DNA of 64,000 bases. It comes from a virus. Positions 11,174 through 53,403 of the stretch are shown in pieces. Location of the stretch: positions 1-64,000 of the IMG/VR virus record IMGVR_UViG_3300042991_001118; one strand, 5' to 3'. The notes below the pieces were generated by a model, which ran no database searches, had not been told where the DNA came from, and was given only the letters and a program-made list of their open reading frames with translations. The translations under genes and the position numbers were made by a program. The stretch's first letter is position 1; each line of letters starts with the position of its first letter.

Positions 11174-11252
11174 GTTTGCAATAAAAAATCCTCTAAAAAC
11201 CTTATAAATATTTAATTTTTTTACACTTTTTGTTGCAAACCGCTTGCAAATG
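11174..11252 (+). promoter_or_regulatory. TTTGCAA inverted and direct repeats around the giant-RNA promoter
   Basis: GTTTGCAA at 11174-11181 faces TTGCAAAC at 11233-11240, and a further CTTGCAAATG follows at 11243-11252. One copy contains the -35 hexamer of the promoter. The arrangement is that of an operator cluster, possibly bound by the adjacent helix-turn-helix protein (inference). Confidence 0.4.
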
Positions 11253-11261
11253 TGGTATAAT
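11233..11261 (+). promoter_or_regulatory. Strong promoter of the giant structured RNA
   Basis: TTGCAA (11233-11238), exactly 17 bp, then TATAAT (11256-11261), with a TG four bases upstream of the -10. Expected start of transcription is near 11268. Confidence 0.8.
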
Positions 11262-11267
11262 ATAGAT

Positions 11268-12120
11268 AGTGAAAAATTAAATGAGTTTCACGTCTGGTGA
11301 AGAGCTAGAAAACTTAGCTTGGCAGCCCAGAACCCTTAAAAATGCCCAGAAGAATCCAAGATGGCACAAATAAGTGCAAGGATTAGGGCGGGTGGACGGG
11401 ATGAACGCTAAGAATACTCTAGCGACTCCAACCAGTGCAGAAGTCGGTTGCCCCACTATCCAGAAATGGAAGATGGTGAAAGAAAGACGAAAGTCTTTTA
11501 GAAACCTGAATGACAAGACTTCTAAAAAGGCGAGGCGCAAAGACACACAACGGTGGCTTGTAAGATGTGTGTCCAAAAGAAAAGCCTAAAGCGCAAAACC
11601 CTACATGTGAGTCCCGTAGACAATCAAGGAACTTAGAAAAATCCTCTGGTTGGGTACGAGGATGTCAAGTGAAAAGACTCGAAGACAGAGGTGCTAAGAC
11701 CGAATCTTCTCGAATGAGTCCGCACTGGCCGAACCACGAGGTTCAGGTACAATCTTTCAGTGCGCCGCTTCTTGGTACGCGCAATGCGAAAAAATGGGAA
11801 GACTTCCCAATACCACTAAGCGTAACCCAAGGTCATCTCAGGGAACTAAGCCCGAACGACCTTCCAGAGTACCTGGCGAAAGGGGAGATTGCGAAACACT
11901 CCTAAACGAAAGTTTAGGGCCGAACTCGAAAGAGGGAAGGATACCTGGCGAAGTGTGAAAGACACGAAGTAGCCATGAAGACAACGTAGGGTGTGATCTC
12001 CGAGGGTGGCTTGCCTAAGCCGAATCGGAAGAGCAAAAAAGAAACTCCTTTGATTTAAAACTACAAAAAGTGGAGTGCTTTTTCAATAACCATACGAAAA
12101 AGCTATACTCCGCTTTTTGT
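11268..12120 (+). ncRNA. Giant structured RNA, ~800-850 nt, GOLLD/ROOL-like candidate
   Basis: The stretch from a strong promoter to a long terminator hairpin holds no convincing gene: short frames exist in several registers, without ribosome sites. It is packed with stem-loops closed by GNRA-type loops: AGAC-GAAA-GTCT (11485-11496), CCTAAAC-GAAA-GTTTAGG (11901-11918), CTC-GAAA-GAG (11925-11934), GTGT-GAAAG-ACAC (~11955), plus TTCAC/GTGAA at the 5' end and GGCTT/AAGCC within TCCGA/TCGGA near 12000. Size, GNRA content and mobile-element setting match the giant ornate RNA classes (GOLLD, ROOL, OLE). I cannot assign a class from memory of the consensus; GOLLD fits best by length. Confidence 0.65.
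12063..12120 (+). terminator. Long terminator hairpin ending the giant RNA
   Basis: The left arm starts ACAAAAAGTGGAGT and continues GCTTTTTC; the right arm is GAAAAAGC then ACTCCGCTTTTTGT. The T-run is inside the stem, so it could stop transcription on either strand. Confidence 0.7.
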
Positions 12121-12386
12121 ATTAAATGGTTAATGTTTCGAGTAAGCAGAAAAAAAAATGCGATTATAAGTCCTGTTTCTAATGGTAGATAACAGGCAGA
12201 GAAGTAATGAATTTTCTGCCGTTGCGAAACAACAAAACAAATATGACAAGAATAGGCTGCGCCCTACTCCTCACGGAGTGTGCTGTGTATGTCTTGGTTC
12301 CCACGCGGTACCGAGACACGTCTGAGTTTACTCAGATGGGTTGGATTCCCCAGGTCATATTTCAGCAACCAATTAACAAATTTTTC
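12121..12386 (+). other. Structured untranslated region upstream of the 12429 gene
   Basis: No gene is supported. Short hairpins follow one another: CCTGTT/AACAGG (~12172-12197), GCAGA/TCTGC (~12197), GTCTTGGT/ACCGAGAC (~12293) and TCTGAG-TTTA-CTCAGA (~12330). This looks like a long structured leader or a further RNA element. Confidence 0.4.
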
Positions 12387-12428
12387 TGAGGCATCCCAAT
12401 GCGGAGTAAGTCCTCAAAGGAGATTTTT
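12387..12428 (+). promoter_or_regulatory. Leader A, copy 1
   Basis: TGAGG (12387-12391) pairs with CCTCA (12412-12416). The stem is followed immediately by AAAGGAG and the ATG at 12429. The loop side carries the conserved TAAG. It is the first of five copies of the same hairpin-plus-ribosome-site module. Confidence 0.65.
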
Positions 12429-12740
12429 ATGGAACTTGTTGTAATTATTTTTTCTAGTTTATCTTTTCTATTCACAATTTTTGGTTGGATAACTGCTATG
12501 TGGCAGCTAAAAGACCTGCGGAAACAACTGGCAGCCAACAAATATTCCATTTACCTCTTCATTGATGGTAAGTGGATTCTGGCACCACAAGAAGCAATAG
12601 ACGCAGGTCTTGCCCTCGTCGAGGGACGACAGGCGTATGGAGCTATCACAAGCGGATTGTGTGACCACATAGTGGACAGGAAAAAAGAAAAAATTTACAT
12701 GTTCCCTAAAGGAGCTAAGGTAGAGATACCTACCGAATAG
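12429..12740 (+). CDS. 103-residue protein with N-terminal membrane helix
   Basis: The start is fixed by AAAGGAG in leader A. Residues 2-24 (ELVVIIFSSLSFLFTIFGWI) form a membrane segment followed by a basic helix and a soluble ~75-residue domain (YSIYLFIDGKWILAP...). No family recognised. CCCTC/GAGGG forms a hairpin inside the gene near 12612. Downstream intergenic sequence has GAACG/CGTTC and CCTGG/CCAGG hairpins. Confidence 0.7.
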   Translation: MELVVIIFSSLSFLFTIFGWITAMWQLKDLRKQLAANKYSIYLFIDGKWILAPQEAIDAGLALVEGRQAYGAITSGLCDHIVDRKKEKIYMFPKGAKVEIPTE

Positions 12741-12861
12741 CTCCCATCCACTGAACGACAAGCGTTCTATCCTGGTGCAAGTCCAGGCAGTGGATCAATT
12801 AAGGCTTCGCCGTGATGCGCCATGAAGCACACGGCACAGGAAAAAAAGAACAAACAATTTT

Positions 12862-12904
12862 TGAGGCTTCCAGACAAATGGTATAAGTCCTCAAGGAGGT
12901 CATT
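12862..12904 (+). promoter_or_regulatory. Leader A, copy 2
   Basis: TGAGG (12862-12866) pairs with CCTCA (12889-12893), with ATAAG on the loop side. AAGGAGG then precedes the ATG at 12905. An AATTTTT tract lies directly upstream, as in the other copies. Confidence 0.65.
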
Positions 12905-12967
12905 ATGGGCTTCGTAATTGCTATGGCGGTTTGGGCCGCCATTGGCTATGCCCTCTTTGCGGCATAG
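12905..12967 (+). CDS. 20-residue hydrophobic membrane peptide
   Basis: Reads MGFVIAMAVWAAIGYALFAA, a single hydrophobic helix. It has one of the best ribosome binding sites in the window (AAGGAGG, 6 nt before the ATG), supplied by leader A, so translation is likely despite the size. Possible roles are a type I toxin-like peptide or a small membrane regulator; nothing in the sequence decides between them. Confidence 0.6.
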   Translation: MGFVIAMAVWAAIGYALFAA

Positions 12968-13010
12968 CTCAAACCCCTGTGACCCTAACACACGTTAGCG
13001 GTCGGCTCAG

Positions 13011-13622
13011 TTAAAAAACCACACTAAAGGGTACTGGGCGTTAAGTGTGGAACGGACGTGATTATGAGTTCTTCCGGTGGAAGCGATATCATTACGCGTA
13101 AGACAAGGTCTGAAACGTAATGGAGTTAAGTACACCAGAAGAAAAACGAGTAAGAATATCCGAATCCTGAACGTATTGGAAAGAAGACAGCATTTCTCGA
13201 TGTCGATTATAAGACCTGAATCTCACGAGAGAAACAGGCTGAGAAGCAAAGAAAACTGTTGTAAAAATTGGGAAAGAAAAAGCATTAGTAGGCGCGAATA
13301 ATATGGATTAGACGATAAGCCCTATCATTTTGAATTTTGGAACCATGCGGAAAGCCAAGACGTTCCGGAAACCTTTATATAATAAAACGAGAGCAAACCA
13401 GCTAAGGAGGGTTTGCTCCCAACGTGAATTACCCGTTGTTGCCACGCCCTACGTGATTATAATAGTCGCCTCTGTTGAGAAACAATCTCATGCTTATCTC
13501 AGAATAAGACCGAAGAGATATTAGCCTCAACATGCTGCCGCCAAGGCGTGCTGGACCCCATCGCAAAAAGTAAAACAATACTGGCAAGTTAATCCAAGTC
13601 TCCATAGAGAAGTTGGTTTTTT
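13011..13622 (+). ncRNA. Second large structured RNA candidate, ~600 nt
   Basis: No convincing gene is present. Stems include CCACACT/AGTGTGG (~13019-13049), CTTCC/GGAAG (~13070), CATTACG/CGTAATG (~13088-13122) and a 10-bp GAGCAAACC/GGGTTTGCTC arm pair (~13389-13417). It ends at a clear terminator (13591-13622). The length is near that of ROOL-type RNAs, but no class can be assigned here. The 5' end is uncertain; no promoter was found, so it may be processed from a longer transcript. Confidence 0.5.
13591..13622 (+). terminator. Terminator of the second structured RNA
   Basis: CCAA-G-TCTC-CATA-GAGA-AG-TTGG is followed by seven T. Confidence 0.7.
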
Positions 13623-13639
13623 TGCGTGAGAAATGGAAA

Positions 13640-13925
13640 GCAAAACGAAAGAGACACCCAGCCGTGCGCACACCAAGAAGCGAAGCATGTGTTGCTCCTT
13701 ACTCCCTTGGAGGAGTAAACATTGGAAAATAGATTATCTGTATTCCAGTGGTTCCTTATGTGAACTGGACAATAAATCTGCTGCTCGATCTCGTTCGGAC
13801 AGTCTAAATAATTGTCGACTATAGGCACACTGTGCTTATCTGGGAGCATACCCCAGTTAGACTATCACGTTCTACACCCCTGGTACCGATCCTAATGTGG
13901 GACGGCGGCCAGGGTCTTTTTTTAT
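13640..13925 (+). ncRNA. Third structured RNA candidate, ~285 nt
   Basis: Between two terminators, with no ribosome site or credible gene. It contains TACTCC/GGAGTA (~13709-13727), AGCAC-type and CTGGG/CCCAG (~13840) hairpins. It ends in CCCTGG...CCAGGG with an inner CCG/CGG arm and seven T (13878-13925). It could be a separate small RNA or the leader of the 13973 gene. Confidence 0.4.
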
Positions 13926-13933
13926 TCCATTTT

Positions 13934-13972
13934 TGAGGCAGTCATCGACATAAGTCCTCAAAGGAGTTTTGT
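13934..13972 (+). promoter_or_regulatory. Leader A, copy 3
   Basis: TGAGG (13934-13938) pairs with CCTCA (13956-13960). ATAAG precedes the 3' arm, and AAAGGAG follows before the ATG at 13973. It begins only ~10 nt after the T-run of the preceding terminator. Confidence 0.65.
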
Positions 13973-14212
13973 ATGAAAAAGATAAAAAAATCGTTTATAG
14001 AAATATCTCCCAAACTTTTTGGGACGGAAGAAAAAGTAATTTTTAAAAATGTGGGAAAAAAATCCATCGAAATAGTGGGGATTTCCCCAATAATTCCAAG
14101 AGGGAGGCAGCTACGGAGTATCGAAATCTATTTCGTGGCACAGTTTATTATTCCACGAAAAAAAAACTGGAAAGAAAACGCAACCAGCGTGCTTAAAAAA
14201 TTAGGATGCTGA
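13973..14212 (+). CDS. Unknown 79-residue basic protein
   Basis: The start is set by leader A (AAAGGAG). A lysine-rich protein (MKKIKKSFIEISPKLF...) with predicted beta strands and no recognised family. CGAAAT-CT-ATTTCG forms a perfect hairpin inside the gene near 14118. It ends TGA. Confidence 0.55.
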   Translation: MKKIKKSFIEISPKLFGTEEKVIFKNVGKKSIEIVGISPIIPRGRQLRSIEIYFVAQFIIPRKKNWKENATSVLKKLGC

Positions 14213-15037: not shown

Positions 15038-15056
15038 ATCTCTACAAATTTTTTAC

Positions 15057-15097
15057 AGGGCTTCCCACACAGGATATAAGACCCTAAAGGAGTTTTT
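15057..15097 (+). promoter_or_regulatory. Leader A, copy 4 (AGGG/CCCT version)
   Basis: AGGG (15057-15060) pairs with CCCT (15082-15085), replacing the GAGG/CCTC pair of copies 1-3. ATAAG, AAAGGAG and the spacing to the ATG are kept. This compensatory change supports a real stem. Confidence 0.7.
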
Positions 15098-15859
15098 ATG
15101 GTAACGTTTCTACGGGCATTATATAACGCCACACAGTGCACGGGACTGCAAGGTCATTACAACTTAAATAGTTGTATCCTGACACAAGACTCCGTCGCAG
15201 CCAGCGACGGAAAGAAATTGTATGTCTCTCACCCTACCGAATATCCCTGGAAAGAAATTTCTCAAGGAGAGGAAGAAATATTTCTGTTCCCCCTTGGGAA
15301 ACAGAAACAAGACTGGTCCACCCCGATAATCAAAAAAAATCAAAAGGAGCAACCAATACTCCAGGCACTAGGGTGTGACTGGGCAATCCAAACGCCACAA
15401 AACACCACATCTAAAATGTTGGGATTTAAAAAGATGATGTCCGTTTTCCCAACTATCGAAAATCCATACTATATGCCAGTTTTGGCAGCAGGATGGAAAG
15501 AAATAATGAAATGGAAAAAGAAACACGAAATGGGCAGAAAAAAGAAAGATTTCTGTCCCGTGGTGTTTTCTCAAGTGGACGGAGGGCTATACGCCCAGTG
15601 CTCACGAGAGCCAAATCACCATCCATCGGATGGTGAACCAAATTACGTACCAATAGATGAAATCCCCATAATCCATGTGGTGGAACGCTGCCGAACGACC
15701 GTAAAGGCGTTCGCGATAAACATGTGTCTTATTCCGAAGCACATGCCAGCACCACAAGAGTTGTGCGCCGATGCATCGTATGAGAACAGAACATCTGTGC
15801 TTCTGCGATGGGGTAGAGAAAAAATATTTCTGATCGGGCTTCCCCTGATCGAGGAATAA
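15098..15859 (+). CDS. Unknown 253-residue protein
   Basis: The start is set by leader A. A segment near residue 32 (DSVAASDGKKLYVSHP) is reminiscent of the 'SDG' strand of DNA polymerase sliding clamps, but the match is short and I do not claim it. Two perfect 8-bp hairpins occur inside the gene: TCCGTCGC-AGCCA-GCGACGGA (~15189) and CACCATCC-ATC-GGATGGTG (~15617). The gene is followed by motif D and a terminator, so it appears to be a single-gene unit. Confidence 0.65.
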   Translation: MVTFLRALYNATQCTGLQGHYNLNSCILTQDSVAASDGKKLYVSHPTEYPWKEISQGEEEIFLFPLGKQKQDWSTPIIKKNQKEQPILQALGCDWAIQTPQNTTSKMLGFKKMMSVFPTIENPYYMPVLAAGWKEIMKWKKKHEMGRKKKDFCPVVFSQVDGGLYAQCSREPNHHPSDGEPNYVPIDEIPIIHVVERCRTTVKAFAINMCLIPKHMPAPQELCADASYENRTSVLLRWGREKIFLIGLPLIEE

Positions 15860-15972: not shown

Positions 15973-15985
15973 TCTACATTTTTAC

Positions 15986-16023
15986 AGGGCAGTCTACGGA
16001 CATAAGACCCTAAAGGAGATTTT
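15986..16023 (+). promoter_or_regulatory. Leader A, copy 5
   Basis: AGGG (15986-15989) pairs with CCCT (16008-16011). CATAAG lies on the loop side, and AAAGGAG precedes the ATG at 16024. It drives a gene that is now broken. Confidence 0.65.
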
Positions 16024-16172
16024 ATGTACAAAGTATTTGCAAGAACATGGTGGAAAAAGAATGAAAGCTGACCAGACGGACTAGATCCGCAGGCCGGAAA
16101 ACCCACCACCATAAAGAAAAACATTCCAAGCGGAGGCGTTCGCAATCGCCAAAGAGTGGAATAAAAAAAATA
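16024..16172 (+). pseudogene. Broken small 'RTWW' phage/plasmid protein with in-frame TGA and frameshift
   Basis: The frame reads MYKVFARTWWKKNES, then TGA, then PDGLDPQAGKPTTIKKN in the same frame. A +1 frame then continues with AEAFAIAKEWNKKNKP. I recall a small mobile-element family with the layout RTWW..N...WPDGLEP..G....EEAxxIAxEWN; if so, the TGA replaces its tryptophan and a one-base indel follows. The intact frame encodes only 15 residues. Leader A and the terminator are both preserved. Either a decayed gene or a recoded one; decay is simpler. Confidence 0.55.
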
Positions 16173-17881: not shown

Positions 17882-17993
17882 TTTAACGGAGCCGCATGTT
17901 GCGTTAGCACTTCGTTCCGCTTAGAGTGTAGACGAATGCCGTCGAAATAAGCTGTCATAGGAGTGCAACGCACGGAAAACTGCGGAAATCTAT
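17882..17993 (+). promoter_or_regulatory. Leader B, copy 1
   Basis: A ~105-nt structured leader ending at the start codon. Long-range stem: CCGCA (17892-17896) with TGCGG (17981-17985). Competing local hairpin: CGCA...TGCG. Internal stems: TGCGTT/AACGCA, GCTTA/TAAGC enclosing GACG-AATGC-CGTC. There is no AGGAG; the only ribosome-site-like bases (GGA) overlap the stem. Confidence 0.7.
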
Positions 17994-18323
17994 ATGGAAA
18001 AAATCGAAATATTAAAAGTCCTAACAAAAGTATACGAGGCGACCACACCACAAGAAGCACAAAAAAAACTTTTTTTGGCAGAGAAACTATCAAAGTTCAC
18101 CCTTCCCTGTCCAATGTGTTTTTCCTCTGACTACGAAGGATCTCCAGAACGATCCCAGTTCGGGGAGAACATGCATTTTTCGTTCGAGACGCAGAGTTTT
18201 TTCTGTGAGGATTGTGGAAATGAATACTCGGCGGACGCGATTCTGACCGAGCTATCCGAAAAAATCGAGGAGTTTAGTAGGAACATTGAGGGCTTCGCTC
18301 TCCTCCTGCCCTTCCTCGAATAA
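17994..18323 (+). CDS. 109-residue zinc-ribbon protein under leader B
   Basis: A helical N terminus, then CPMCFSSD and CEDCGNEYS cysteine pairs (residues ~39 and ~71), suggesting one zinc site. No family recognised. The ATG at 17994 sits 8 nt after the leader B closing stem. A stem-loop GCAAC-TCCAGG/CCTGGA-GTTGC (~18331-18362) follows the stop. Confidence 0.65.
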   Translation: MEKIEILKVLTKVYEATTPQEAQKKLFLAEKLSKFTLPCPMCFSSDYEGSPERSQFGENMHFSFETQSFFCEDCGNEYSADAILTELSEKIEEFSRNIEGFALLLPFLE

Positions 18324-18399
18324 ACCAAAGGCAACGTCCAGGTGAAACATCCTGGATGTTGCAGCACGAATCAGTCTTCTCATGAAAGGAGAAAAAACC

Positions 18400-18861
18400 A
18401 TGAGAACACAACTCTTTGAGGATGCGAATGCATCCCACTCCCTCTTCGTAAATGCCATAGTGAATGAGGGTGGAGAGTTCAAAGCGCGGACCTTCACGAA
18501 GGTGGCGATTGAACTCGTGCAGAGAAATGGCGAAAACCAGGCAACCCAAAACGTGTCCTTCTTCTTGGACATGGGCGACGCTCTAGCCTGGTTCACAATG
18601 ATGTCCGATACAACCTGGACGATGGAGCTAACCCAGTTCAAAGAATTCTCTGGAAAAACTCGGGGTATAAAAATTTCCCCAACCGGAGGGAAGGGAGTCC
18701 GAGTCTCCATCCAGGAAACAAACGGAACCGAAAAAAAACTCATTTACTTTGACCTGAGTAAGGTCAAAGCATTGGAAATGGCACTCGTTGTGAGTGCCTT
18801 CACAAAGGTGTTTTTCAACAAAAAATTTAGCCAATTATTGGCTAAGGAGGAAATTCAATGA
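18400..18861 (+). CDS. Unknown 153-residue protein
   Basis: The ATG at 18400 has AAAGGAG upstream. Beta-rich and cysteine-free with a helical C terminus; no family recognised. The stop overlaps the next start (ATGA), so it is coupled to the 73-residue gene. Hairpins are dense inside it: GATGC/GCATC (~18420), TTTGACC/GGTCAAA (~18749), GGCACTC/GAGTGCC (~18780), AGCCAA/TTGGCT (~18829). Confidence 0.65.
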   Translation: MRTQLFEDANASHSLFVNAIVNEGGEFKARTFTKVAIELVQRNGENQATQNVSFFLDMGDALAWFTMMSDTTWTMELTQFKEFSGKTRGIKISPTGGKGVRVSIQETNGTEKKLIYFDLSKVKALEMALVVSAFTKVFFNKKFSQLLAKEEIQ

Positions 18862-19079
18862 ACGATAGAAACATGGATAGAAACAGTGACCCTGCCAATC
18901 TTTTAAAAAACCTAGGCATGTGCAAAACCATTCCAGAGTTGTTGGCGGACTCGGTCCGCAACAACGATTCCCTCGCGGTACGAATCGAGCAGCCATCCGG
19001 CTGCATAACGATCGGACATAAACCTAAGACCTCAAATTCTCGCCGCGAACTAATCATAAAGGTCGAAAGCGACGACTAA
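18858..19079 (+). CDS. Unknown 73-residue protein
   Basis: AAGGAGG precedes the ATG, which overlaps the upstream stop by 4 nt. The coding sequence holds a near-perfect 12-bp hairpin (GTTGTTGGCGGAC-TCG-GTCCGCAACAAC, ~18938-18965) and GCAGCC-ATCC-GGCTGC (~18990). A GGACTG/CAGTCC stem-loop follows the stop. Confidence 0.6.
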   Translation: MNDRNMDRNSDPANLLKNLGMCKTIPELLADSVRNNDSLAVRIEQPSGCITIGHKPKTSNSRRELIIKVESDD

Positions 19080-19166
19080 GAAAAAAGGGACTGGACTGGA
19101 TAAAATCCTGGACAGTCCAACACGCGCCGAAGGCATATCGCCGAAGGCAAAACTGAAAGGATAATT

Positions 19167-19238
19167 ATGTCTGAACAACGAAAAAAAATCATGTTGTCGC
19201 AGTTAGCGGAGGCAATCCGCAAGACAACACGGACGTGA
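19167..19238 (+). CDS. 23-residue peptide
   Basis: GAAAGGA precedes the ATG. The peptide MSEQRKKIMLSQLAEAIRKT... is basic and helical. Nearly the whole frame folds as TGTTGTC...GCGGA-GGCAA-TCCGC..GACAACA, so it may be a translated hairpin or a leader peptide. Confidence 0.4.
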   Translation: MSEQRKKIMLSQLAEAIRKTTRT

Positions 19239-19259
19239 AAAAAGAGCAGGGTCAGAGTG
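19225..19259 (+). repeat. Intergenic stem-loop C, copy 1
   Basis: AGC-AGGGT-C-AGAG...CTCT-ACCCT-CGCT, overlapping the end of the 23-residue peptide. Other copies are at 19626, 20337 and 20926. Confidence 0.6.
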
Positions 19260-19312
19260 GAATATCTCTACCCTCGCTAACATATCCCGTACCATAATCA
19301 CACTATTTAATG

Positions 19313-19417
19313 GATCCACATGTTGCGTTAGCACATCGTGCTGCTTAGAGTGTAGGCGGATGCCGCCGAAATAAGCATGTAGCGGTCGTACAATGCACAG
19401 AAAACTGTGGAAATTTT
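19313..19417 (+). promoter_or_regulatory. Leader B, copy 2
   Basis: The long-range stem is CCACA (19316-19320) with TGTGG (19406-19410), a compensatory change from CCGCA/TGCGG. The inner stem is GGCGG-ATG-CCGCC. The local alternative is CACAG-AAAA-CTGTG. The ATG follows at 19418. Confidence 0.75.
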
Positions 19418-19615
19418 ATGTCTGAAAAAAAGCAATATCTCTGCATGGTCATGGCGTATACCATAGTACCATGCTTATTGGGTCTTTTTGGAAAAGACGG
19501 ATTCCTGGCTTCTTTCACGGAAGCGGGAATCGCCATCCTGGCATTCATTGCCGGAGGCGTTGGATTTTTTCTGATCGGAAAAACTATCATAGCCATCGAA
19601 AAATGGCTTGATTAA
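19418..19615 (+). CDS. 65-residue membrane protein
   Basis: Two hydrophobic helices (residues ~8-24 YLCMVMAYTIVPCLLGLF and ~35-57 IAILAFIAGGVGFFLIGKTII) joined by a short loop. The start follows leader B copy 2. Holin-like in size and topology, but no specific holin family is recognised. It ends TAA directly before stem-loop C copy 2. Confidence 0.6.
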   Translation: MSEKKQYLCMVMAYTIVPCLLGLFGKDGFLASFTEAGIAILAFIAGGVGFFLIGKTIIAIEKWLD

Positions 19616-19623
19616 ATGAAAAA

Positions 19624-19703
19624 AGAGCAGGGTCAGAGCGAAATACCTCTACCCTTGCTACTAGGCACAGACAGGGTATTATGCCCTATCTGTCTTTTTT
19701 TAA
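19624..19703 (+). terminator. Stem-loop C copy 2 plus terminator
   Basis: AGC-AGGGT...ACCCT-TGCT (19626-19660) is followed by AGACAGGGTATTATGCCCTATCTGT-type hairpin and seven T. Confidence 0.7.
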
Positions 19704-19705
19704 GG

Positions 19706-19806
19706 ACACAGGTGCAGAGCACATCGTGCTGCTTAGAGTGTAGGCGGATGCCGCCGAAATAAGCATGTAGCGGTCGTACAATGCACAGAAAACTGTGGAA
19801 ATTTGT
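19706..19806 (+). promoter_or_regulatory. Leader B, copy 3
   Basis: Starts directly after a terminator T-run. CACAG (19707-19711) pairs with CTGTG (19794-19798); GGCGG-ATG-CCGCC is the inner stem; AGCAC-ATC-GTGCT is intact. The ATG is at 19807. Confidence 0.7.
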
Positions 19807-20424
19807 ATGTTAAAGTTTATAACAAGACCAGCATCCAAGCTGGAAACAATTTCATCATTCAGGATTGAACAAATCACTGAGCATATCCACACAAATATCA
19901 GATCGTGGGAATGCGAATGTGTCGTCATCAACGAAACACAAACTGGGAAAGCCTGGTATGATGGAGTAGTAGTGGTATCTAATTTCGGACCAAATCATGG
20001 AATGGGATGGGAAACATGGATTCTCGCGAAAGAAATCCGTTCCAACAATCCCCAAACGCTATTCTGGTATAGCGAAGGAATCCGATGGGAATGGCTCCAC
20101 CACGAAACAAAACGTGATGTAAGGCAAGAGAAAATGGTTATACTGCCAATTTCGCAAAACAACAGGATGGACAATAGATTCCATCTAAAGGACATCCTGA
20201 AAAATAGAATGGCAACATGTCCAATCCCTATCGCTCCATCTATCCCAGGATTCTCCCTAGCGGAAATCCAAAATCCAGCGATGGTAAATGTTTCTGCGCG
20301 AAATGCGCAGAGGAAAGAAAAAACACATAAAAAACTAAGCGGAGGTCGGAGCGAAACGCTTCCCTTCGCTATCACGAAACAGAGAGGTCGAAACCTCTCA
20401 TTTTTTTTCAAAAAGGAAATTTTT
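19807..20424 (+). CDS. Unknown protein, reads without a stop into the RadC-like gene
   Basis: Begins MLKFITRPASKLETI under leader B copy 3. About 180 residues look genuine. The frame then crosses stem-loop C copy 3 and a GAGAGG/CCTCTC hairpin with eight T, and joins the RadC-like frame with no stop. A TAA in another register lies just before stem-loop C (AACTAAGCG), so a one-base indel may have removed the original stop. Natural end probably near 20335. Confidence 0.6.
20337..20415 (+). terminator. Stem-loop C copy 3 plus terminator, inside an open frame
   Basis: AGCG-GAGG-T-CGGAGCG-AAA-CGCTTC-CCTT-CGCT keeps the C fold with changed bases. GAGAGG-TCGAAA-CCTCTC and eight T follow at ~20383-20408. 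A terminator inside an open frame marks this as a former gene boundary. Confidence 0.65.
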
Positions 20425-20919
20425 ATGAAAAAAGCAGAAATGGCGGACAGACTCCGCCTCCTGGAGATAGAAAATTCCTCTCTCAGAGAGGAATTAGAAA
20501 ATCTAAAAAGTCTATCTCCATCTCCCAAAAAGTGGCTCCAGCCACAAATGTATGGGAGTAAAACCGTAAACGAAAGATACCAGGTGCTCCTGCGAAACAA
20601 GATGCAGGAGTATTTCTACGTGATTCTGTTGGATACAAAAAACAGAATAACGCAAGAAAACCTGGTGTCTATAGGAACCCTTAATATGTCCCTCGTACAT
20701 CCACGCGAAGTTTTCGCCCCAGCCATCGAGGCCCGGGCTTGTTCAGTTATTTTGGTCCACAATCATCCGTCAGGTGACCCGACACCAAGCTATGATGACA
20801 TGGCTTTGACGGAACGGCTGGTCGAAGTCGGAAAAATGGTCGGGATCGAAGTCCTAGACCATATCGTCATCGGTGAAACATACTCAATGTCCTTAAAGGA
20901 ATTGGGTGTGATAAAATGA
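20425..20919 (+). CDS. radC: RadC-like JAB domain protein
   Basis: 164 residues from the ATG at 20425 (AAAGGAAA upstream). After an N-terminal coiled coil (residues ~5-35) comes the JAB domain with VHNHPSGDPTPSYDD, the full zinc-site motif of RadC/MPN proteins. Mobile-element RadC homologues lie next to antirestriction and plasmid genes; the biochemical role is unsettled. AATTCCTCTC-TCA-GAGAGGAATT is a perfect 10-bp hairpin in its 5' part. The upstream frame is open into it, so a fused 370-residue product is also possible. Confidence 0.85.
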   Translation: MKKAEMADRLRLLEIENSSLREELENLKSLSPSPKKWLQPQMYGSKTVNERYQVLLRNKMQEYFYVILLDTKNRITQENLVSIGTLNMSLVHPREVFAPAIEARACSVILVHNHPSGDPTPSYDDMALTERLVEVGKMVGIEVLDHIVIGETYSMSLKELGVIK

Positions 20920-20925
20920 AAAAAG

Positions 20926-21003
20926 AGCAGGGTCAGAGTGGAATACCTCTACCCTCGCTAACATATCCCGACAGGGTAGTATGCCCTGTCTTTCTTTTTT
21001 TAA
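20926..21003 (+). terminator. Stem-loop C copy 4 plus terminator
   Basis: AGC-AGGGT...ACCCT-CGCT is followed by GACAGGG-TAGTAT-GCCCTGTC and a T-rich tail. Confidence 0.75.
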
Positions 21004-21013
21004 AGAATGTCCT

Positions 21014-21217
21014 ATGACACCAGAAAGAGCAAAACAGCTCATTGAATGGATGAAATGGGAAAATGGAATGTGCGGATGCTTAGGCGCAAAAAAGCCGCAA
21101 TTCCCAGAGGAAACCAAGCAAGAAAAAGAATTCCTCTTAGGTGAATTAAAGAAAAAATCTGGGGAATACTGTATGGCGTATCTCCTGTACGAGATCGCCA
21201 ATAGTAAAAACCAATAA
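21014..21217 (+). CDS. Unknown 67-residue protein
   Basis: I chose the ATG at 21014 (MTPERAKQLIEWMKW); the upstream part of the frame runs through the terminator. The ribosome site is poor (AAAG). Helical with two cysteines (MCGCLG). No family recognised. Confidence 0.5.
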   Translation: MTPERAKQLIEWMKWENGMCGCLGAKKPQFPEETKQEKEFLLGELKKKSGEYCMAYLLYEIANSKNQ

Positions 21218-21267
21218 AAACACTGCCTCAGTGTGCCAATACCACATTGAGGCAAATACCACAATGT

Positions 21268-21375
21268 TTAAAGGAGCCGCAGGTGTAGAGCACTTCGTGC
21301 TGCTTAGAGTGTAGACGGATGCCGTCGAAATAAGCTGTAACAGGAGTGCAACGCACAGAAAACTGCGGAAATTTT
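21268..21375 (+). promoter_or_regulatory. Leader B, copy 4
   Basis: CCGCA (21277-21281) pairs with TGCGG (21364-21368); AGCAC-TTC-GTGCT and GACGG-ATG-CCGTC are intact; local alternative CGCA...TGCG. The ATG is at 21376. Confidence 0.75.
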
Positions 21376-21771
21376 ATGCATCCACCAATATATCCCCATT
21401 CTTACGAAGCAATATTGTGGGAAGGCAGTGTATACTGCCTGTCCTGCATCCCACCATGTGCTAGAGAATCCGAAATTTCCCCAATATACGCAGAATCCGT
21501 GTGGGATACCCCACCAGCCTGCGAAAATTGTGGAAAAATTCACGACTACATGGAGATCACTCAGAAAGAGTGCATCTCCTGTGGCACATGGCACGAGGAA
21601 AATCCCCAAGTCAAGGTCCAATGCGGACCCTGGGGAAGAGAAGGCATATGTCCAAATTGTTTTGAGAAGGCCAAGTGGCCGTTACACACAAAGACAAAAG
21701 GAACATACGACAGAGAACAAGGAGACCGCCAGAAATGGACGGTCTTCTATGTAGGACATATCCTCGAATAA
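21376..21771 (+). CDS. 131-residue multi-zinc-ribbon protein under leader B
   Basis: Four cysteine pairs (CLSCIPPC, CENCGK, CISCGT, CPNCF) indicate two or more zinc sites. No enzyme motif. Several perfect hairpins occur in the gene: AGGCAGT-GTAT-ACTGCCT (~21422), GGAGAT..ACTC/GAGT..ATCTCC (~21552), GGTCC/GGACC (~21615), AGACCG/CGGTCT (~21723). It is followed by the same post-stop repeat as the ArdC-like gene. Confidence 0.65.
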   Translation: MHPPIYPHSYEAILWEGSVYCLSCIPPCARESEISPIYAESVWDTPPACENCGKIHDYMEITQKECISCGTWHEENPQVKVQCGPWGREGICPNCFEKAKWPLHTKTKGTYDREQGDRQKWTVFYVGHILE

Positions 21772-21773
21772 AA

Positions 21774-21826
21774 CCCATGCACCGGAGCAGTGAAAAACCT
21801 GCCCGTGTGCAACACGCCACACCATT
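21774..21826 (+). repeat. Post-stop repeat, copy 2
   Basis: Identical to 17829-17881 and again directly upstream of a leader B copy, so the two form one duplicated unit of ~120 nt. Confidence 0.7.
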
Positions 21827-21828
21827 TA

Positions 21829-21937
21829 ACGGAGCCGCATGTTGCGTTAGCACTTCGTGCTGCTTAGAGTGTAAGAGGATGCCTCTGAAATAAGCTGTCA
21901 CGGAAGTGCAACGCATAGAAAAAATGCGGAAATTTGT
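21829..21937 (+). promoter_or_regulatory. Leader B, copy 5
   Basis: CCGCA (21835-21839) pairs with TGCGG (21925-21929). The inner stem is changed on both arms to AGAGG-ATG-CCTCT, and the local alternative to CGCAT-AGAAAAA-ATGCG. The ATG is at 21938. Confidence 0.75.
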
Positions 21938-22162
21938 ATGTCTGAAAAAATATATAAGGGATACTTGAAGATTGGATTCCAATACTTTCTTCAAATACCT
22001 GACCCATCATCAAGATGGGGATTCCAAATATACGACGATGACCAGGCGTGGGATGGGGGGATCGGTTTGTTTAATCTGATCCCTAGAATCCCAGTGAAAG
22101 AAAGCAAAGTCCCTAAAGAGGATAGAGAAAGGTTAGGTTGGATATTGAAAGAACCAACCTAA
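21938..22162 (+). CDS. Unknown 74-residue protein under leader B
   Basis: Reads MSEKIYKGYLKIGFQYFLQI, beta-rich, no recognised motif. It is the last gene of the plus-strand island and runs into a strong bidirectional terminator. Confidence 0.55.
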   Translation: MSEKIYKGYLKIGFQYFLQIPDPSSRWGFQIYDDDQAWDGGIGLFNLIPRIPVKESKVPKEDRERLGWILKEPT

Positions 22163-32338: not shown

Positions 32339-33166
32339 ATGAAAAAAGATCAAGAAACAACTATCATCACAATTTACATAATCATTGACGCTCTTTGTGA
32401 AAATTTATTACGCCATCCAGCACAAAAACAGAAATTAACGGATGCTGAAATAATAACGATAGCAATATGTTCTGCCATTTTCTTCAACAGCAATCATGAC
32501 AAAGCTCTTTCCTGGCTGCGCATAGCTGGCTATTTCCCTGAGATGCTTAGTTTATCCAGGTTCAATCGAAGGATACATCGTCTAAAAGAGTTTATCAAAT
32601 TCTGTTTCGAGAGCGTCAGCGAGTTGTTTCTTACGAAAAAATTATACATCGCCGATTCTATGCCTTTGCCTGTATGCAAAAGAGTGCGGGCTTGTCGAAA
32701 TAAAAAAGTCCGAGGCAGAGAATACTATGGCTGCTGTGTTGCAAAAAATGAAAAATTCTTTGGATTCCGGCTGCATCTCATTGTGGATACCCAAGGAATT
32801 CCTGCATCTGTCGCCATTATGCCTGGAGCATACCACGATATCACTCCTGTGTATGAAGTTACGTCGCCGTTGCCGGAACAATCGACTGTCATGGGAGATA
32901 AAGCATACAACTGTAAAAATGTCGAAGATGCTTTGAAAGAATTCGGCACCACACTGATGCCCAAACGTCGTAAAAATATGAAAATGCAGTGGTCTTTGTT
33001 CGAGCAATATTTTATCATAGGTCAACACAGAAGGCAAATAGAAACATCGTTTAGCATTCTCTCCGACACTATGGGACTCAATCATATCAAAACTACGACA
33101 CTAAAAGGCTTTATGATTAAAACCTACGCTGCCGTGCTCGCTATGATTTTCTATATCGTTTTCTAA
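32339..33166 (+). CDS. IS982-family-like DDE transposase
   Basis: 275 residues, full length for the family. The core YIADSMPLPVCKRVRA...GREYYGCCVAKNEKFFGFRLHLI...HDI..V......VMGDKAYN has the IS982 pattern with the DDE aspartates (ADS, GDKAY) and a C-terminal ETSFS glutamate. It ends 7 bp before the stop of the convergent IscB gene, which leaves no room for a normal right end unless it lies inside iscB. Terminal inverted repeats were not found by eye. Confidence 0.8.
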   Translation: MKKDQETTIITIYIIIDALCENLLRHPAQKQKLTDAEIITIAICSAIFFNSNHDKALSWLRIAGYFPEMLSLSRFNRRIHRLKEFIKFCFESVSELFLTKKLYIADSMPLPVCKRVRACRNKKVRGREYYGCCVAKNEKFFGFRLHLIVDTQGIPASVAIMPGAYHDITPVYEVTSPLPEQSTVMGDKAYNCKNVEDALKEFGTTLMPKRRKNMKMQWSLFEQYFIIGQHRRQIETSFSILSDTMGLNHIKTTTLKGFMIKTYAAVLAMIFYIVF

Positions 33167-33173
33167 AATCATC

Positions 33174-34646
33174 TTACAAACAAACCATACCTGCATTTTG
33201 CAACACGAGGCTGCACTCTTTAGATGGGACATAATCTTTTTGCATCGCAAAACCGACCCGCATGCCCATTTCTCCGTATCCTTTGATTACACAATATGTT
33301 CCCTTATATCGAACCACATCTCCTTTTCTCAGTTCGTCGTATCCGCTTCGTATGACTTTCTTTCCAGGCAGCACACGCAAACGTGCCAGAATTTGTTTGC
33401 CTTTTTTAGCGACTAGCTCTGTCAGGCTGTCAGACTTTTGTCCCGTTCTTTTGTTGCGATTTTTAGCCACGATTTTTGTGCCATCTTTATAGTTTCTCTC
33501 CCTTGTGGCATGGATAAGCTGGCGATGGTGCCTTCGGAACTGTTTGTATTCATATACGATAAGGTCGCTAGATTTTATCGAGCCTATTTTATCTTCGTCA
33601 GAAAAGGAGACCAGATATGCGTCTATGCAATGGCTTTTGGGAAGTCCCAGATTTTGCCGTTTTTCTTTGGTCTCGTATCCATAAGTTAGACAAACAGTTG
33701 AAACAATTTGCATCAACCATTCATAAAATAAAGGCATGATTGTGTTTAGAATCGTCGTATGAACATACTTCTTACACATGCCTGCAAATACAGCCTTGAC
33801 CTGGGCATCTACTTTCTCATGGCGATGCACTTTCTCATGGCATTTTGCGCAAAGGGTGATCAGATTTTCCGGATTGTCCCCGCCTTTCTGGCTTGCCCAT
33901 ATTACATGGTGTACGTGCAAATTCCCTTTTGTGTTACCACACAACTGGCACGTATGCTTGTCTCGGCAAAGCACGTATTCCTGGCTGTTGGCGTACCCTT
34001 TTTTTCTGCCGTTTTGGTACTGCACGCCTTGAACGGAGGGATTGTCAAGTTTGTGGATGTCGAATTTGCCATATTCCAGATGCACATGCGCTATAGGCAA
34101 TATTTTAGCTGCTTTGTCACTGAATCTTTTGTGCGTTTCCAACAAATGGCTGGCCGTAGGCGTGAGCCAACCTCTGTTTCGGCGGCGATTATGAAAGCGG
34201 ATCGGCTTAGGTTTTATCCCTTTGCAAAGCAAATTTTCGGCGGTATTCGATATTTTGTATCTCTTTTCACCAAAGTATGTTTGCGCTTTTTTCGCCCTGC
34301 GTTTTCTAACCAAACGACGATGCCTCCTTCTGCTTTGCCTGTGCATCCTGCGTTCGGCCATATTTTCGGACACTTCCTTGCTTCTAGCTTCCACATGTGC
34401 CGCAAATACTACTTCTCCATTCTCTTTTCTCACGACTAGCGCGATATCTTTTCCGCCTGGGTCAATTCCCATAATCAAAGGTTGAGTGTAGGATGTAGTA
34501 TCATATAAAAGTTGTATCGTGAATGGTTTACGACGTATTACTTTTGCAAGGCCGGCTTTTAGCAACTTTTTCACTTTGCCAAATCTTTTCGTCGGCATGA
34601 GTGGCTGGCCATTTTCCGATACGACATAAACGTAATTATTTTCCAT
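33174..34646 (-). CDS. iscB: IscB RNA-guided nuclease, apparently intact
   Basis: 490 residues from the ATG at 34646. Domains in order: N-terminal PLMP domain (GQPLMPTKRFGKVKKLL), RuvC-I (IMGIDPGGKDIA), arginine-rich bridge helix (RRMHRQSRRRHRRLVRKRRAKKAQ), RuvC-II glutamate (HVHLEYGKFD), HNH (CQLCGNTKGNLHVHHVIW...NLITLCAKCHEKVH), RuvC-III (KSHCIDAYL) and the C-terminal target-interaction region. All catalytic residues are visible. IscB uses omega RNA to cut DNA next to a short target-adjacent motif and is the proposed ancestor of Cas9. A longer frame upstream to 34772 is the omega RNA read in frame. Confidence 0.92.
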   Translation of the reverse strand: MENNYVYVVSENGQPLMPTKRFGKVKKLLKAGLAKVIRRKPFTIQLLYDTTSYTQPLIMGIDPGGKDIALVVRKENGEVVFAAHVEARSKEVSENMAERRMHRQSRRRHRRLVRKRRAKKAQTYFGEKRYKISNTAENLLCKGIKPKPIRFHNRRRNRGWLTPTASHLLETHKRFSDKAAKILPIAHVHLEYGKFDIHKLDNPSVQGVQYQNGRKKGYANSQEYVLCRDKHTCQLCGNTKGNLHVHHVIWASQKGGDNPENLITLCAKCHEKVHRHEKVDAQVKAVFAGMCKKYVHTTILNTIMPLFYEWLMQIVSTVCLTYGYETKEKRQNLGLPKSHCIDAYLVSFSDEDKIGSIKSSDLIVYEYKQFRRHHRQLIHATRERNYKDGTKIVAKNRNKRTGQKSDSLTELVAKKGKQILARLRVLPGKKVIRSGYDELRKGDVVRYKGTYCVIKGYGEMGMRVGFAMQKDYVPSKECSLVLQNAGMVCL

Positions 34647-34649
34647 ATT

Positions 34650-34850
34650 TTGCTCATTTATAAAAAATTCCGAAGAATAATTCCACACGAAGGTGGTCGG
34701 TCTCCCTGAACTGGGTGCAGGATTGGCATAGAGCCTGGGATTGGGAAGTTCATCCCAGGGTACTACCTGCATCCGTGTGTCACGTCCCTACTCAACTAGC
34801 AAGCAGGGTAACCCTGATAACTACAGCGTTCAATCCTAAAAACTTCGTGA
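34650..34850 (-). ncRNA. Omega RNA (HEARO) of IscB
   Basis: Read on the minus strand, directly upstream of iscB: an outer TGCAGG/CCTGCA stem, CCTGGGA/TCCCAGG hairpin (34734-34759), GGCTCTATGCCAATCC, and a CAGGGT/ACCCTG hairpin toward the 5' end (~34803-34816). This is the layout of HEARO/omega RNAs. The guide should be the ~16 nt at the 5' end beyond the element boundary, near 34820-34850. Exact ends are not determined. Confidence 0.75.
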
Positions 34851-39052: not shown

Positions 39053-39389
39053 TCCCCAAACCTTGTTATATTGGATGTTGTGTTGCAACCCGAATATGGA
39101 GTCAAAAGCCCAAGAGTGATAGGAAAAAGTCTCAACCCTTGTTATATTGGATGCTGGGTTGCAACAAAGAGACACAAGGAACATTGTTTGACCTATACTA
39201 TACGTCTCAAACCTTGTTATATTGGATGCTGGGTTTCAACATACATAAGGACACTGACGTTCACAGAGGAATTCATGTCTCAAACCTTGTTATATTGGAT
39301 GCTGGGTTGCAACTGACCACATAGAGAAAAAGATTGAAAAGGAGCTAGAATGGTCTCAAACCTTGTTATATTGGATGTTGTGTTGCAAC
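39053..39389 (+). CRISPR. Mini CRISPR array: five 37-nt repeats, four spacers, no cas genes
   Basis: Repeats at 39053-39089 (5' degenerate), 39129-39165, 39204-39240, 39277-39313 and 39353-39389. Each begins GTCTCAAACCTTG and ends GGGTTGCAAC (GTGTTGCAAC in the first and last). Spacers are 39, 38, 36 and 39 nt and unrelated to each other. Repeat 2 pairs CAACCC with GGGTTG and repeat 3 pairs AAACC with GGTTT, so the hairpin is kept by paired changes. No cas gene is in the window. Type and transcription direction are not assigned. Confidence 0.85.
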
Positions 39390-39451
39390 CCCTAGTTCCA
39401 ATCTATCTCACATTTTATGATGCTTAATTGATAAAAGGAACTTCATCTTAA

Positions 39452-52791: not shown

Positions 52792-53403
52792 TTATTTTCT
52801 TATTGATGTATTTGAAAGAGTCAATGCCCTATTGTGGCGAATACAGGATTGGCATTCGCCACATGGTCTGGATTCGTCTCCTTGGCAAAACCAAATGTTT
52901 TCTAGGCATTTTTTTTGTACTTTGTCAGACATCATATTCTCTATGATTTCCGATTTTTCCATGTTAATTATTGGAAAGGAAATAGAGATGCCTTTTCTTG
53001 TTATCGAATTGTACTCAGAAGCGATCCCTTTAATTTCGTGGAGATATTGGATCGCCACATCTCCCGAAACATACCCAAGATAAAGAGTCTCTTCTGGCAT
53101 TGCATGTATTAGTCCTAAAAAAGCCCATATCGCGGGTTGTGCTATTCCATCTTCACCTGCTGGTCCAAGCCAGTATCTTTTGCTTTCATAAGAAAGAGAT
53201 ATTTCAGTATGAAAGAATTTCCAGCCCTCGTCATTGAGAATTTTTTTGATTTTATTTCGACTTCCCCTGCATTTCTTCGATCCAGATATCTGCGGGCAAT
53301 TGAGAGAAATTGTTCTAATTACATGTGGAGAATCTTGCTGTTCTATGAGCGTCTTTATCAAGAGATATGTACTGTCTAGTCCACCAGACCATAAAATCAA
53401 CAT
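52792..53403 (-). CDS. queC: QueC-like PP-loop enzyme
   Basis: 203 residues. The PP-loop SGGLDSTYLL at the N terminus, YLGYVSGDVAIQY in the middle and the C-terminal zinc site C(x)8-PCGECQSC match 7-cyano-7-deazaguanine synthase. QueC makes preQ0, used for tRNA queuosine and, in some phages, for 7-deazaguanine DNA modification. No other pathway gene is visible here, so it may be a divergent QueC. Confidence 0.75.
   Translation of the reverse strand: MLILWSGGLDSTYLLIKTLIEQQDSPHVIRTISLNCPQISGSKKCRGSRNKIKKILNDEGWKFFHTEISLSYESKRYWLGPAGEDGIAQPAIWAFLGLIHAMPEETLYLGYVSGDVAIQYLHEIKGIASEYNSITRKGISISFPIINMEKSEIIENMMSDKVQKKCLENIWFCQGDESRPCGECQSCIRHNRALTLSNTSIRK

Follow-up and report, generated by a model that had tools for sequence, protein, structure and literature searches.

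In bacteriophage T4 the ribosome-binding sites of genes 38 and 25 are split. According to the passages of PMC3014915 which deal with them, RNA structure between the Shine-Dalgarno (SD) sequence and the AUG cuts the spacing from 22 to 5 nucleotides (nt) in gene 38 and from 27 to 11 nt in gene 25, and mutations which destabilise the intervening structure lower initiation; for such split (accommodated) sites these passages cite Nivinskas 1999 and Malys & Nivinskas 2009. Here we describe a repeated RNA element which may be a large, regulated variant of this arrangement. It is located in the record IMGVR_UViG_3300042991_001118 of 116,166 bases; its first 64 kb (64,000 nt) are the window analysed. 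The minus strand of the record carries tail sheath, baseplate and capsid-type genes at 76-107 kb, and we therefore assign it to a contractile-tailed, T4-like phage.

The whole record has exactly five copies of the element, all on the plus strand; the count was the same with blastn and with a covariance model. The model matched the five with E-values of 1e-26 to 1e-32; the next best match had an E-value of 3.4. All are confined to one plus-strand gene island of about 11 kb (10.9-22.2 kb). Each copy is a rod of about 95 nt which in 5/5 cases ends 7-8 nt before an ATG, or 7-9 nt as measured from the end of its closing stem. A preliminary description, made from the sequence alone, had reported five copies just before the start codons of different genes. 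This was borne out at every site, without a sixth copy in the record. When the 300 nt following each copy were compared, the five had nothing in common. Therefore, the element was multiplied, not the genes. Copies 1 and 5 have a 163-nt repeat in common which takes in the end of the upstream gene; between copies 2 and 3 a 3' part of 87 nt is identical. This patchy sharing of flanks indicated module shuffling or conversion.

Using RNAalifold the copies folded into a single unbranched rod consisting of the stems P1, P2, P3 and P4, an internal loop, and P5 which is capped by an ATG loop. Copies 1, 4 and 5 are closed by the P1 stem CCGCA/TGCGG; copy 2 has CCACA/TGTGG instead, and copy 3 has CACAG/CTGTG, exactly as initially described. 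The inner stem P5 is GACGG/CCGTC in copy 4, GGCGG/CCGCC in copies 2 and 3 and AGAGG/CCTCT in copy 5; here the initial description was correct for copies 2-5, and in copy 1 P5 is GACGA/CCGTC with one pair broken. About 22 irregular pairs are contributed by P2 to P4. Covariation supports the long-range rod P1-P5. In alignment A2 92.2% of the pair cells were standard and six pairs had changed on both sides. The covariation score of the rod was matched by 0/500 column shuffles, and versions of the structure slid along the alignment lost nearly all of it, in line with the covarying closing and inner stems proposed before. P1 taken alone had moderate support only (29/500 shuffles). Individual copies had lower folding energies than their shuffles (z -1.9 to -4.4). 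The independent covariation events are few because the five copies are related, with copies 2 and 3 as one clade, and no homologue was found elsewhere.

The head of the rod is invariant. Across the five copies 21/21 columns of the P4/internal-loop core are unchanged and a third of the rod columns vary (hypergeometric P=5e-5). Such a pattern is the hallmark of specific recognition, although a set of five related copies is small, and it suggests a shared partner for the head, whatever the mechanism. A search of the record for an antisense partner of the core gave a longest match of 15 nt and no clear candidate. A K-turn in the rod was rejected by inspection as the GA/AG layout is missing. The mini-open reading frame (ORF) ATG-CCN-NNG-AAA-TAA, which runs through P5/P4 of all copies, was given no weight as it is a consequence of the invariant letters.

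The preliminary description had noted that AGGAG was absent and that the only GG of a ribosome site was in the stem. This did not hold. Directly 5' of the rod TTTAA(N)GGA is present in 5/5 copies, and the GGA ends 0-1 nt before P1. The sequences adjoining the rod are TTTAACGGAG, TTTAATGGAT, TTTAAGGAC, TTTAAAGGAG and TTTAACGGAG in copies 1-5, with AAAGGAG at 21270-21276 in copy 4 and AAGGA at 19702-19706 in copy 3; in alignment A1 the columns T13-15, A17 and G19-A21 are invariant in this segment. The motif resembles the normal ribosome sites of the phage: TTTAAGGA also serves as SD context at ordinary genes (14673 on the plus strand; 55610, 46919 and 8058 on the minus strand). TTTTAAGGAG-N5-7-ATG is the standard layout in the syntenic plus-strand island of G001, the closest long-record relative found (119,917 bases; identity 52% in the sheath and 64% in the capsid-type protein). 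When the rod was excised in silico, the flanks joined as AAAGGAG-AAATTTT-ATG, similar to AAAGGAGATTTTTATG at 12429 and comparable sites. Pairing of the 5' sites with the anti-SD sequence was calculated at -3.2 to -7.9 kcal/mol (individual values in Table 1), and the GGA inside P1 pairs with three bases at -3.3 to -3.5 kcal/mol; ordinary genes of the phage, one very weak site apart, are at -5.6 to -12.6 kcal/mol. From the GGA 5' of the rod to the AUG the linear distance is 100-104 nt in 5/5 copies, of which about 8-9 nt are outside the rod.

Tentatively, and with a probability of about 0.42, we propose that the rod is wedged into a split ribosome-binding site which is bridged when the rod is closed, and that its head docks a shared regulator. 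In five genes the rod would separate the SD, TTTAA(N)GGA(G), from the spacer of 7-8 nt which leads to the start codon. Closure of P1 would bring the SD from 100-104 nt to about 8 nt from the AUG, and ribosomes would initiate across the rod's base, in the manner of T4 genes 25 and 38; the closed rod would be the ON state. The head, consisting of P4 and the GAGUGUA/GAAA internal loop, would most likely dock the regulator, be it a protein, an RNA or a ligand. The regulator would set whether P1 stays closed, and the five genes would thereby respond together. Several findings speak against bridging. At about 95 nt the rod is far above the size of the T4 hairpins. A second GGA, which overlaps P1 and is also invariant, precedes every AUG by 6-7 nt, a canonical spacing, and may be the actual SD. 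In copy 2 the 5' site, GGAU, is weak, and TTTAA(N)GGA may have been conserved through shared descent of the repeat instead of selection. Lastly, the rod is not predicted to predominate in copies 2 and 3 when these are folded in context (P1 probabilities of about 0.6 and <0.3, respectively). The invariant, canonically spaced 3' GGA and the weak site of copy 2 are the reasons why bridging was not rated higher and why sequestration of the 3' GGA retains some weight.

Sequestration is the main rival and the model of the preliminary description. The SD would be the GGA in the 3' strand of P1, hidden and OFF in the closed rod, and a regulator or a local 3' hairpin would free it. The invariance of this GGA in 5/5 copies fits, as does its distance from the AUG, which is that of ordinary genes (GGA-AATTTTT-ATG at 20425). 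Further, at least four pairs of the local 3' hairpin are possible in every copy, and in copies 2 and 3 the predicted ensemble is mixed. However, for copies 1, 4 and 5 the rod makes up about 100% of the predicted ensemble and the probability of the local hairpin is near zero, and no pair of this hairpin is changed on both sides in two registers and five copies. The matched changes initially reported for the competing hairpin were thus not recovered, and bistability found no support as a conserved property. With the rod as predicted ground state in copies 1, 4 and 5, a sequestered SD would leave these genes silent by default; since P1 is predicted to be nearly always closed there, a block by closure would need a strong trigger, and bridging would be on by default. 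The 3' GGA pairs with no more than three anti-SD bases, and the conserved upstream SD motif is left unexplained. The GGA(G) motif 5' of the rod makes bridging at least as likely, and we consider sequestration rather unlikely. What persists of the initial interpretation is a reused, structured, cis-acting translation element which is not in Rfam; bistability was not supported as a conserved trait, and the GGA(G) 5' of the rod had been missed.

In T7 early mRNA RNase III processing hairpins are located between the genes. Similarly, the irregular long hairpins of the present island are repeated between genes on the same strand, P2-P4 correspond to the irregular intercistronic duplex of about 20 base pairs expected of such a signal, and a strong sigma-70-like promoter is lacking just upstream of any copy. 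A putative cut would leave a 3' product which starts near the ribosome site, and the local 3' hairpin, thus accounted for, could refold and free the GGA. The invariant sequence of the internal loop and the SD-like motif abutting P1 do not follow from such a role, which we regard as improbable, though as a serious third candidate. Slightly less probable is a new class of metabolite riboswitch with the P4/internal-loop/P5 head as aptamer and P1 as platform. An invariant unpaired core flanked by covarying stems speaks for it, yet the downstream genes (Cys-rich proteins, a hydrophobic protein, a RadC-domain protein and others) have no pathway in common, no homologue was found in the bacterial genomes searched, unlike for known riboswitch classes, and for genes of a single island a protein of the phage is the simpler partner. 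Least probable is that the repeat is passive, a mobile or recombination unit (cassette boundary, attC-like, amplified spacer) without a role in translation. The patchy flank sharing of copies 1/5 and 2/3 does show that units were shuffled or converted, yet in 5/5 copies the element is placed exactly between an SD-like motif and the AUG, and this, the covarying stems and the invariant core argue for selection on the RNA. An integron attC site was rejected: the RYYYAAC...GTTRRRY core pair is absent, with ATTTAAC only before copies 1 and 5 and no GTTRRRY at the 3' end. The element is a genuine, selected and reused RNA which most likely acts at translation initiation.

The initial statement that the element is not a known riboswitch class was substantiated. 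At the gathering score Rfam covariance models had 0 matches in the window, at E-values up to 5 no cis-regulatory family coincided with the copies, and the element was unrecognised in every collection searched. The homologue searches covered sequences other than the record's own close relatives, and the pattern searches need near-exact cores. Three core patterns in IMG/VR yielded only chance matches among those listed, none of which keeps both P4 and P5; the covariance model applied to these pattern matches reached a best E-value of 0.38. The core pattern in GTDB genomes gave chance matches only. Blastn found nothing in GenBank phages and one chance match in plasmids (E 4). The covariance-model search for further members, suggested in the preliminary description, thus remained at chance level in IMG/VR and found none in the relatives G001-G009, most of which, G001 apart, are short fragments in which coverage of the island is not demonstrable. 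In G001 the element was not found in the syntenic island. For the gene after copy 4 no relatives were found; the ArdC-like gene upstream of copy 1 has a relative on one contig (L007), without the element. Absence of the element elsewhere is not proven.

Table 1. Positions of the five copies, their upstream SD-like segments and the genes which follow (kcal/mol values refer to the anti-SD duplex; bits are covariance model scores).
Feature	Positions	Strand	Remarks
Copy 1, upstream SD-like TTTAACGGAG	17882..17891	+	invariant A1 columns; -5.8 kcal/mol
Copy 1, rod P1-P5 (CCGCA...TGCGG)	17892..17985	+	119.9 bits; P1 mean pair probability 0.94-0.98
Gene after copy 1, 109-aa Cys-rich protein, weakly zinc-ribbon/MqsA-like	17994..18323	+	all matches below curated cut-offs
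Copy 2, upstream TTTAATGGA	19306..19314	+	weakest of five, -3.2 kcal/mol
Copy 2, rod (CCACA...TGTGG)	19316..19410	+	121.5 bits
Gene after copy 2, 65-aa hydrophobic protein, membrane protein by inspection	19418..19615	+	no family
Copy 3, upstream SD-like TTTAAGGA	19699..19706	+	directly 3' of a terminator-like hairpin; -5.8 kcal/mol
Copy 3, rod (CACAG...CTGTG)	19707..19797	+	104.9 bits; local 3' hairpin predicted to compete
Open frame after copy 3, RadC (JAB) domain in C-terminal part	19807..20919	+	
Copy 4, upstream SD TTTAAAGGAG	21267..21276	+	6-nt match to anti-SD; -7.9 kcal/mol
Copy 4, rod (CCGCAG...CTGCGG)	21277..21368	+	116.1 bits; P1 probability 0.99-1.0
Gene after copy 4, 131-aa Cys-rich protein	21376..21771	+	
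Copy 5, upstream SD-like TTTAACGGAG	21825..21834	+	-5.8 kcal/mol
Copy 5, rod (CCGCAT...ATGCGG)	21835..21929	+	128.7 bits; fold z-score -4.4
Copy 5, head (same in all): P4 GCTTA/TAAGC, internal loop GAGTGTA/GAAA, variable P5, ATG loop	21862..21896	+	
Gene after copy 5, 74-aa protein	21938..22162	+	no family

The frame after copy 3 stays open across 20330-20425, a leader/terminator-like stretch, and continues into the RadC domain as one frame of 370 codons; two genes would be expected here. The plus-strand island has 41 terminator-like sites versus 13.9 expected. A repeated 3' hairpin module, GAGCAGGGTCAGAG..CTCTACCCTCGCTA, is present at gene ends (19236-19289, 19617-19670, 20917-20970 and a diverged one near 20335), and terminator-like hairpins mostly come next. 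A second repeated leader precedes five ORF starts (12380-12431, 12856-12907, 13928-13975, 15049-15100 and 15976-16027). It consists of a short hairpin (either TGAGG..CCTCA or CAGGG..CCCTA; TAAG precedes the 3' arm) followed directly by AAAGGAG-N5-7-ATG; similar short hairpins precede two G001 genes (L050 12189-12234 and 12555-12599).

At its head the island has two long stretches without a convincing gene, 11262-12425 and 12980-13930, and ahead of them, at 11233-11261, a promoter of the extended -10 type (TTGCAA-17-TATAAT). In G001 the layout and the promoter sequence (TGTGGTATAATATAG) are the same, and about 1.8 kb are noncoding. The stretches had no Rfam match; possibly they are large noncoding RNAs. 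A tRNA-like piece lies at 12741-12800, with acceptor-like ATCCACTG/CAGTGGAT and T-arm-like CCTGGTGCAAGTCCAGG, and G001 has tRNA-like pieces with GGTTCAACTCC arms at L050 11340-11430, 11910-11970 and 13080-13145; ARAGORN called none of these. Elsewhere in the window of this T4-like phage we noted a CRISPR-like array at 39057-39400 (five repeats, CAAACCTTGTTATATTGGATGCTGGGTTGCAAC, spacing 73-76 nt), an IscB-like RRXRR/HNH protein at 33174-34772 (minus strand) adjoining an IS982-type transposase at 32339-33166 (plus strand), and a QueC-like protein at 52792-53403 (minus strand).

How does the element compare with known systems? With the RNase III hairpins of T7 early mRNA it shares that several related irregular hairpins are located between genes of one phage island. 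In contrast, the present repeat abuts an SD-like motif, keeps a fixed distance to the AUG and has an invariant loop; cleavage is putative. Like the SD-sequestering translational riboswitches in Rfam it has a conserved unpaired core, covarying stems and a P1 over a GGA near the AUG. It differs by the lack of an Rfam match, its being found in a single phage, the absence of a common gene function and of a covarying alternative helix. The T4 split sites, as far as they are described in PMC3014915, are alike in that the SD is too distant, closure of a structure restores a working distance, and the sites are intergenic in T4-type phages. Here the linear distance of the putative SD is over-long in 5/5 copies, and computationally the rod is predicted to bring this SD to a functional distance. 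The differences are a rod of about 95 nt compared with linear spacings of 22 and 27 nt in T4, five unrelated genes, an invariant internal-loop head and a second GGA in the closing stem. The element is new as a sequence family; it is best described as a variant of the split ribosome-binding site, not as a new kind of mechanism. We consider it doubtful that it represents a new class of regulated split site, i.e. a portable module the head of which binds a phage or host factor and co-switches unrelated genes. If true, the portable rod would be a natural scaffold controlling translation from inside the ribosome site, and the element would allow one to test what size of structure the ribosome tolerates between SD and AUG. 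T4 genes 25 and 38 have their own small hairpin each; the five rods, if so used, would mean that a split-site arrangement can turn into a regulatory module.

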